This document shows, piece by piece, positions 22,359 through 44,359 of a stretch of DNA of 64,000 nt. Every line of letters starts with the position of its first letter. The first letter of the stretch is position 1. Origin of the DNA: Cliona cf. orientalis (taxonomy: Eukaryota; Porifera; Demospongiae; Clionaida; Clionaidae); contig OZ005691.1 in the NCBI GenBank assembly GCA_963930775.1, positions 4,771,000-4,834,999 of the forward strand, read 5' to 3'. The position numbers and the translations under genes were made by a program. The notes beneath the pieces were generated by a model. It made no database searches, had not been told where the DNA came from, and was given only the letters and a program-made list of their open reading frames with translations.

Positions 22359-25225
22359 TCATAGTTTATCCATCTCTGCTCTGAACTCATCGATGGCCTT
22401 GCGTAGTCTCCGCTCATGTTCCGGGGAGATGACCTCTTTGACCCACTGGGACAGCTGCTTCATGATGGCCTCTCGCTGGATGGCAAAGTGAACCTGAATC
22501 ACATCCTCAAAACCTGAAGGAAGAGTATACAAAGGGAGAGAAAAACTAACAATAATGAGAGTGGCAACAAAGTATTATAATTGTATAATCTTGCCAACCA
22601 GTGCAGCGAGACTAATGCGGATACAGACCCCCTCAGTTTTTATCGCTGCAAAATCACACTATTATTGTGGGCCCGGGGAGGGGGGAATGCCTCAATCAGA
22701 GTAGACAGTAGCCTGAGATAGTTTAACAAACTGAAGTGAAGATCGTGTGCACGCACAAGTATACCATAGTAGTGCACTGCACAGACAGTGTGCAGGATGT
22801 GTACAAACGTTTCTGTACATGTGGTTCAAACACTGTGGGCATTGGAATCTCTCTTGATTGGATATAATTATGACATTGTGCTAATACTGTGTCAAACAGA
22901 AAATTTGAGTCGTGCTAAGTAAATACCTTTTGGAGGATTTCTCAGCTGCTCAAGCATTGCATAGCGAACAGTGTACACCTGAATGTTGGAATTGTACTTT
23001 GTACTCTGTGCCTGTAAGCGTGTGTGCATAAAATTGATAATGAGTGGCTACGGCTGAGGGACTTGAGAAAGAAAGATAGACAGTAGAGAGAGAGAGAGGA
23101 CCTTCTTACATTTCCCTCCGCTGTTCCTCTGATGGCCTCATAGCCTGGTTCATTGAACATTGGGTCAGGGATGAAGATCATACCTTGGATGGAGAGAAGC
23201 ACCTGGAAGAAAATATGTACGGAGAATAAACATTACCATCAAAGCTAGCGACCAGCCCTACACATACATGCATACCTGTAGCAGGTTTGAGCGCAGAGGG
23301 TCCCATTTCTCAGTAGCATCTCCACCATGCCATGTACCCAGCAGGCTGAGGCATACCTTACCATCAGCGTAAAGGTTGGGGTTGAATCTGGGAGTATGGA
23401 TGAATCAAGAAAATAGGATAAAATTACATGTAATTAAGAGGACATAACTTCAATGAGACGGATAATACAGTATGCCTATAGCTTCGTCCCCAGGCCCATT
23501 CCCAGCTTTCAATAGTGAATGGATCTGGGGAACAAGGCTATAGTGTCACTCACATGAAAAGATTATGTTACACTGCACATGACATTGTTATGTACATGCA
23601 CATACATACAATGTCATGCATGACATCATACTATACATATGTATCTACTTTGACTGAAATTAGTGATTGACATAGAATATTATGTATTAGCTCAGGGAAT
23701 TTGCTATGCATGTGCACATGCACATAGTTATTATGTTCACAAAAATGCCATACTACCTGACAGTTCCTCCCCCAGTTGTTGTCATGACGACGAGAGGTGG
23801 GTTGGTTGGATATGAGACAGGGTAGAAGATGTCAAAGATGAAGCATCCCCTGCCGTAGGGTGTCTCAGCAGGACCAGTGATCAATACCCTCACCAGATCC
23901 ATGTGGTCTTCGTCCTGTAAGGAGTGATCGAAAGATTGAGCTACAATGTGCATACTATAAGTTGCGAGTATTCGTTTCCAAAAATATTTCATGTGACAAG
24001 TTTTCGCGTTAAAATACTTTTGACAAACAAACCTGTACTGCATTATCATTAATATCGCGCATATTATATTTTCCGTGCATTTAATAAAGCTTCTGTGACT
24101 ACCTAAACTGAATTATGCACTTGCATTTGAGAGCCACCACCTGTTTACACTGTCACTGCATTGACAGCTGACCAGCAAGGCACAGGATTGTAATCAGTAA
24201 TGTAGCTGAGGTAAGAGCCACGTAAACACAGACGGGCAACAGCTGCTCACTACTATACCACTGGGCAGGACTCACCATGACCACTATTCCTTTATGTCCG
24301 GTATACCTCAAATGCATACTTTCTCTCAGACTACCCTCACCATTTAGCATAGGAGGGTTATGACGGACGGACGGACAAAAATCACCAAACGATAGCAGTA
24401 ACCCCTCCGCCTACGCTTTGCAGCGAGTGTTAAAAAGGCCAACAATCATATCAGTGTGGATGCATCAAGTAATAATATTATTAACTGGAATATAATACTA
24501 CTATCGAGGAGACTTGCCTGAAAAAAAAATGAAATCGTATGGTGTTCATAAAATGCCAAGGAAATCTGATGATCTAAATTATTTGAAGCACATGTTGCAC
24601 CTATTCCCAACTTTGGGAGACGAAATTAGCATTCTAAATTTCTATAATACATTATAATTTACCATGTGCACCTCAGCCGTTTACTTGGGCACACTTTTTT
24701 GGAAGCTCTAGTTGTTCATATATGTATGATCACATGCACTCATTATCATGGTCCTATAATTGGCAACAACAGCTAGCTATGTAAATGTAAGATTTTTATA
24801 AAATGAGAGAGAGAGAGAGAGAGAGAGAGAGAGAACACAGAAGAAGAGAAAAGAGACACTATCAATACCTGTCTTAGAAAGATTGCTGAGTCAGGATGGA
24901 TGGGTAGTGACTCCTCCAGCTGCTTCATATCCCTCATGATGGCTTTGACCTTTGGTGAGCGAGGGTCCAGGGTCTGCTGTACCTTGTCTGCCAGTGTGTG
25001 AACATCAATCAGCTCAGTGGCGTCATACTTGCAGACCTCGAGTGCAGACACATAGACCTCCCTCAGTCCATCTTCAACGATCTCTGTGGCGTCAGCTAGT
25101 CTCTCCCAATCGTGGTCGACACTCGAAGGGCTAGTGGGTGTGGCTTGTGGGCTCATCGGAGCCCCACTTCCAGATGGAGAGGAGGGAGAAGGGAGTGCAT
25201 CAGAAGGACTCTGAAGTTGCTCAAC
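22359..25225 (-). other. E2 (UBC) module exons of the fusion gene
   Basis: Six exons (24869-25225 to 22359-22513) encode the linker and complete UBC domain. As in BIRC6 and UBE2O, the usual HPN motif before the active site is replaced by NPN (FNPNLY). The active Cys lies in [11 protein letters not shown], and the segment after the active site ([20 protein letters not shown], then RGTAEGN) is of the large-E2 class. The acceptor at 23011, not the AG at 22979-22981, restores an 11-residue stretch ([11 protein letters not shown]) that aligns with that family. Confidence 0.85.

Positions 25226-44359: not shown

Follow-up and report, generated by a model that had tools for sequence, protein, structure and literature searches.

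The window, by which we mean the whole 64,000-nucleotide stretch of Cliona cf. orientalis DNA that was analysed (C3:4771000-4834999), carries on its minus strand a predicted fusion gene extending from position 44359 to position 22359, in which a Ufd2/UBE4 core is followed by a UBC domain. Our model of this gene, obtained with a splice-and-codon gene finder together with homology, comprises 27 exons and encodes 1205 amino acids. An earlier note on this DNA had counted 29 exons with joining phases and 1289 amino acids; the phase-consistent frame was recovered here, but neither count was reproduced. On the same strand, 1.4 kb upstream of where our model starts, we observed by eye a large receptor tyrosine kinase-like exon (window 45745-47151), and fragmented non-LTR retrotransposon frames, also recognized by eye (endonuclease and reverse transcriptase-like), occupy window 18959-21176 of the minus strand.

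The gene finder works by dynamic programming, with codon statistics trained on 1602 codons (two UBE4 paralogues and a kinase exon) and generic splice matrices. Every run had its stop set in advance at 22359, while the start at 44359 arose unforced in one run, gave way to 44830 in another and was fixed in the final model. Two micro-exons, 10 and 14 bases long, were removed by hand. The model is homology-guided at the acceptors 37119, 30724, 29593 and 27636, which received a bonus because the longer exons they open align with UBE4; two of these four score poorly as splice sites (-1.0 and -2.1). Milder intron penalties lead to additional exons and to one core exon being split. Since it forbids stops, the in-frame openness of the model is partly there by construction. 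In-frame codon scores near or below zero were obtained for exons 42374-42340, 41794-41750, 38312-38254, 34867-34842 and 32920-32753, the last of which nonetheless has its own Pfam match.

The least certain and most weakly supported part of the model lies 5′ of about 37.1 kb. The N-terminal region is encoded by six 5′ exons (44359-44269, 42374-42340, 41794-41750, 39043-38902, 38312-38254 and 37119-36985; together window 36985-44359), among which the start codon and the short exons are uncertain and only 39043-38902 and 37119-36985 show a clear codon signal; by eye, the latter resembles the UBE4 stretch that precedes the core. The next exons, still upstream of the Pfam core, are 36717-36680, 35742-35679, 35564-35499, 35393-35232 and 34867-34842 (window 34842-36717), with a negative codon score in the last. 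The core starts, from model residue 289 on, in exons 33375-33275 and 32920-32753 (window 32753-33375), and its middle and rear are carried by exons 31631-31381, 30724-30608, 30175-30038, 29593-29460, 28859-28619, 27636-27540 and 27318-27125 (window 27125-31631), the 5′ ends at 30724, 29593 and 27636 being those favoured by hand for their alignment with UBE4. The last core exon (window 26455-26808) ends in NNFIKQ and in a phase 0 donor, CAG/GTATGT.

When the 1205-residue model was searched with Pfam, Ufd2P_core (PF10408) was found at residues 289-888, covering profile positions 69-628 of 628 with 298 bits and an E-value of 1.4e-88, which bears out the Ufd2/UBE4 core that had been recognized from its motifs. 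PDB relatives of a piece of this core at E up to 0.001 are four sequences, all of them Ufd2. Throughout the genome (217 Mb in 149 contigs), Ufd2P_core matches fall in 13 places, six on contig C8, four on C19 and three in the fusion gene. The C8 gene is UBE4B-like (576 bits for the core and 94 for the U-box in Pfam) and the C19 gene UBE4A-like, with its U-box spread over two exons, both labels having been assigned by eye. Over the rear core, the fusion gene shares 69 of 266 residues (26%) with the UBE4B-like and 54 of 234 (23%) with the UBE4A-like sequence, compared with 91 of 262 (35%) between these two paralogues. Judged by sequence, the fusion gene is thus a third, divergent E4 of this genome and not a damaged UBE4, since the two U-box-bearing genes are separately encoded. 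A damaged or misassembled UBE4 was accordingly rejected, as the C8 and C19 genes stand apart with their own U-boxes and no orphaned E4-type U-box was detected. Because the core is divergent, client-binding features may have been lost in the fusion protein.

No U-box (PF04564) was detected in the 1205-residue model at E up to 0.01, nor anywhere on contig C3 at E up to 0.001 in the genome-wide profile search. This agrees with the earlier claim of a UBC domain in place of a U-box at the C-terminus of an E4 core, and the search for PF10408, PF00179 and PF04564 that had been proposed returned the first two domains and not the third. We also looked for a hidden U-box in six frames of window 20-46 kb, using a model derived from three of the genome's own U-boxes, which a heavily decayed U-box could escape; the best of 1376 open stretches of at least 12 residues reached 5.6 bits (E 1.3). 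The same model gave 18 to 26 bits on U-box pieces not used in building it (L004, L005 and L007/L008) and 64 to 65 bits on L003, whose gene had gone into building it. At E up to 0.001, the genome contains PF04564 matches in eight places, namely one in the UBE4B-like gene, two exons of the UBE4A-like gene, one in a gene on contig C11 and four in other genes. These last four, which are not of E4 type by eye, presumably belong to UBOX5-like, CHIP-like (two exons) and WDSUB1-like genes. Since all eight matches belong to other genes, they give no pointer to misassembly.

The two halves are separated by an intron of 1229 bases (window 25226-26454), and the join from 26455 to 25225 preserves the reading frame. 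Acceptor 25225, with a score of 1.84, ranks top of the 104 AG sites that occur from the donor to position 24900, by a narrow margin over 25656 (1.80), which lies inside a repeat. Among the ten AG sites scoring 0 or more it also has the longest phase-0 opening, 150 codons against 77 for the next. The exons flanking the junction have in-frame codon scores of +23.0 and +25.7, compared with values below -13 in the other frames, and the Ufd2P_core match reaches two residues past the junction, to residue 888. With the intron left open to it, the finder placed two exons inside, including one in the repeat, and went on to acceptor 25166 instead; it chose the 25225 join after all splice sites between 26400 and 25231 had been barred. 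The repeat (window about 25540-25860) is dispersed, with 1827 candidates, of which 40 were scored (the one in the window and 39 more, at 96-99% identity). An open frame at 25545-25817 was considered as extra exons and rejected, as it sits in this repeat. No U-box was found in the intron.

The fusion exon (window 24869-25225) leads from a Ser/Pro-rich linker of about 38 amino acids through a BIRC6-like pre-UBC segment into the N-terminal helix of the UBC. The remainder of this BIRC6-type domain and its C-terminal extension are encoded by exons 23914-23757, 23387-23276, 23202-23110, 23011-22927 and 22513-22359 (window 22359-23914), of which 23387-23276 carries the catalytic Cys and the LB-loop Trp, 23011-22927 has a 5′ border uncertain by a few bases, and 22513-22359 carries the stop codon. 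In Pfam, UQ_con (PF00179) matches residues 1001-1109 with 69 bits (E 4.2e-19), and the E-values of core and UBC exclude chance for both domains. The active-site stretch is intact, with the catalytic Cys at residue 1070 (about 1154 in the earlier 1289-residue model, where an intact Cys had likewise been read), and the Cys-to-Trp spacing of 7 is that of two other UBCs in the genome. About 52 kb below the window start, a solitary, degenerate partial copy of the catalytic UBC exon was found (L026, C3:4718531-4718602, minus strand; 78 bases at 88% DNA identity, with ADVKIC against ADGKVC), in surroundings whose frames by eye resemble receptor phosphatases.

When we compared the fusion UBC with PDB chains, BIRC6 gave 247 bits, UBE2O 140 and UBE2Z 115, so that an origin from UBE2O or UBE2Z was rejected and the likeness to BIRC6 proposed before is upheld, BIRC6 being the nearest of the UBCs compared. 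On these scores, the predicted UBC is of BIRC6 type. The genome also has a BIRC6-like gene on contig C16, in which a BIR match (7442257) and a UBC (7462728) lie 20 kb apart on the same strand. To its UBC, joined by eye, the fusion UBC is identical at 100 of the 199 residues aligned from DEDHMD onward, and the pre-UBC segment aligns as well, weakly and with a gap. By eye, the two UBCs have one intron position in common, before VL[L/V]SIQ, and the other introns differ. BIR domains (PF00653) occur in five matches genome-wide, three on C17, one on C7 and one on C16, and the profile search found none on C3.

From sequence, then, we consider it probable that one gene encodes a self-contained E2/E4 hybrid, in which a Ufd2/UBE4 core and a linker are followed by a full BIRC6-type UBC in the place of the U-box. 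The alternative of two adjacent genes on the same strand, a truncated E4 without a U-box that stops after 26455 and an independent BIRC6-type E2 beginning near 25225, appears unlikely, even though core and UBC are separate domains with their boundary at an intron and an in-frame ATG at 25156, the first in the fusion exon, could serve as the E2 start. That ATG is poor, with C at position -3, and the next two in frame fall in the stretch aligned to the N-terminal helix of the BIRC6 UBC; because the exon passes unbroken from the linker into this helix, linker and E2 are separable only by a translation start within it. Furthermore, the E4 of such a pair would lack a U-box at its end, and the matching pre-UBC segment is internal in BIRC6. 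On the minus strand, the junction intron lacks AATAAA and has a single ATTAAA, while polyadenylation-type signals in introns of this gene average 1.6 per kb (29 in 18359 bases); the AATAAA signal says little either way, since the first one past the stop of the gene lies more than 900 bases downstream. The fusion exon is open in frame only from the acceptor, the codon directly before it being TAG, which lends slight support to an internal exon.

Less probable still than two genes is a fusion protein that is made but is non-enzymatic, binding E4 clients or an E1 as a decoy or regulator while conjugating nothing. The divergence of the core would fit such a role, as would the retention of UBE4A-, UBE4B- and BIRC6-like genes in the genome, but the UBC has its N-terminal stretch, its catalytic Cys and its LB-loop Trp, all of them aligned, and the in-frame codon score is positive in all five UBC exons (1.4 to 11.8). 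We give hardly any credence to an assembly error that fused an E4 gene to a BIRC6-type gene: a high-copy repeat does lie in the junction intron, where misjoins can arise, but the eight U-box matches leave no orphan of E4 type, the BIR match on C16 has its own UBC on the same strand, and C3 is a contig of 12 Mb.

Known E4s rely on their core to bind clients as well as p97/Cdc48 and Rad23-type shuttles, and on their U-box to recruit a charged E2. The U-box role in E2 recruitment is described in the available portions of PMC5797217. For the E2/E4 hybrid encoded by one gene, we lean towards a scenario in which a Ufd2-type E4 swapped its U-box for a complete BIRC6-type E2, the single chain taking ubiquitin directly from E1, probably UBA6, and extending chains on clients of the E4 pathway beside two ordinary E4s. 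The earlier suggestion that the E2-recruiting domain had been replaced by an E2 thus stands as far as position is concerned, but since the genome keeps two U-box E4 genes, it was not the sole E4 that was altered. The core would hold the substrate or the growing chain, a role taken over from known E4s, and the N-terminal helix of the UBC would dock on E1. Ubiquitin would be loaded onto Cys1070 and passed intramolecularly to the substrate or chain on the core, dispensing with a separate E2 and with U-box activation, the flexible Ser/Pro-rich linker giving reach between the core and the built-in E2. A UBA6-like E1 gene is encoded in the genome (L027-L028, C14:98500-116000, minus strand; 578 bits to UBA6 vs 459 to UBA1), from which we infer the pairing. 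A UBE2Z-like UBC, so labelled by eye, was found on C13, and since UBA6-like, BIRC6-like and UBE2Z-like genes co-occur, this genome seems to possess the UBA6 branch of the ubiquitin system.

By analogy, the best reading is that the hybrid would follow the working principle of BIRC6 and UBE2O, but on a new chassis. In the text available from PMC13061254, both are termed E2/E3 hybrids, and BIRC6 is described as working with no independent E2. The fusion shares with BIRC6 (BRUCE) the UBC, the pre-UBC segment and the C-terminal extension, as well as a predicted E2 and large body in one chain; it differs in having no BIR match on its contig, a Ufd2 core as body and about a quarter of the length of PDB BIRC6 chains. 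With UBE2O it shares the E2/E3 hybrid logic and the LB loop, conserved among class IV E2s according to the accessible part of PMC4705383, but its UBC is clearly nearer BIRC6 and its body is again a Ufd2 core. The same partial text places an LB-loop Trp in UBE2Z and BIRC6 and suggests that the loop, which masks the Cys, steers the choice of E1; by alignment and PDB search, the fusion UBC has the catalytic Cys and LB-loop Trp of class IV UBCs. Compared with Ufd2, UBE4A and UBE4B, the fusion has the core over nearly the whole profile, but a UBC stands where their C-terminal U-box would be, and the core diverges from both paralogues of the same genome.

No description of a Ufd2 core paired with a UBC was found in the open-access literature, as far as its accessible extracts go, and those of PMC6052599, PMC6548493, PMC11354881, PMC13061254, PMC4705383, PMC5797217 and PMC7017255 do not mention the pair. 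A snail survey, in the portion available, reports one Ufd2 sequence without a found U-box, for which its authors say that annotation may account (PMC6548493). In two collections not intended for animal genomes, a pattern search for relatives gave no match (viral_contigs) and 25 matches of which none is a relative (genome_contigs). The hallmark of E4s is a U-box with which they borrow an E2; if the hybrid is real, chain extension could run without U-box activation, an E2/E3 hybrid could be built at about one quarter the length of BIRC6, and it would become possible to test whether a given E4 function resides in the core or in the U-box.

The C11 gene with a U-box match merits a separate remark (L017:1464-5500, C11:3563963-3567999, plus strand). 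Its spliced model, which missed part of the UBC, gave no UQ_con in Pfam and a VWA match at only E 0.13. On the contig itself, a U-box exon (E 2e-17) follows about 1.2 kb past a PF00179 match of 37 bits (C11:3566395-3566559), and UBC-like exons were read by eye (NINSSGRICHSS), so that this is perhaps a second, different E2-plus-U-box gene.
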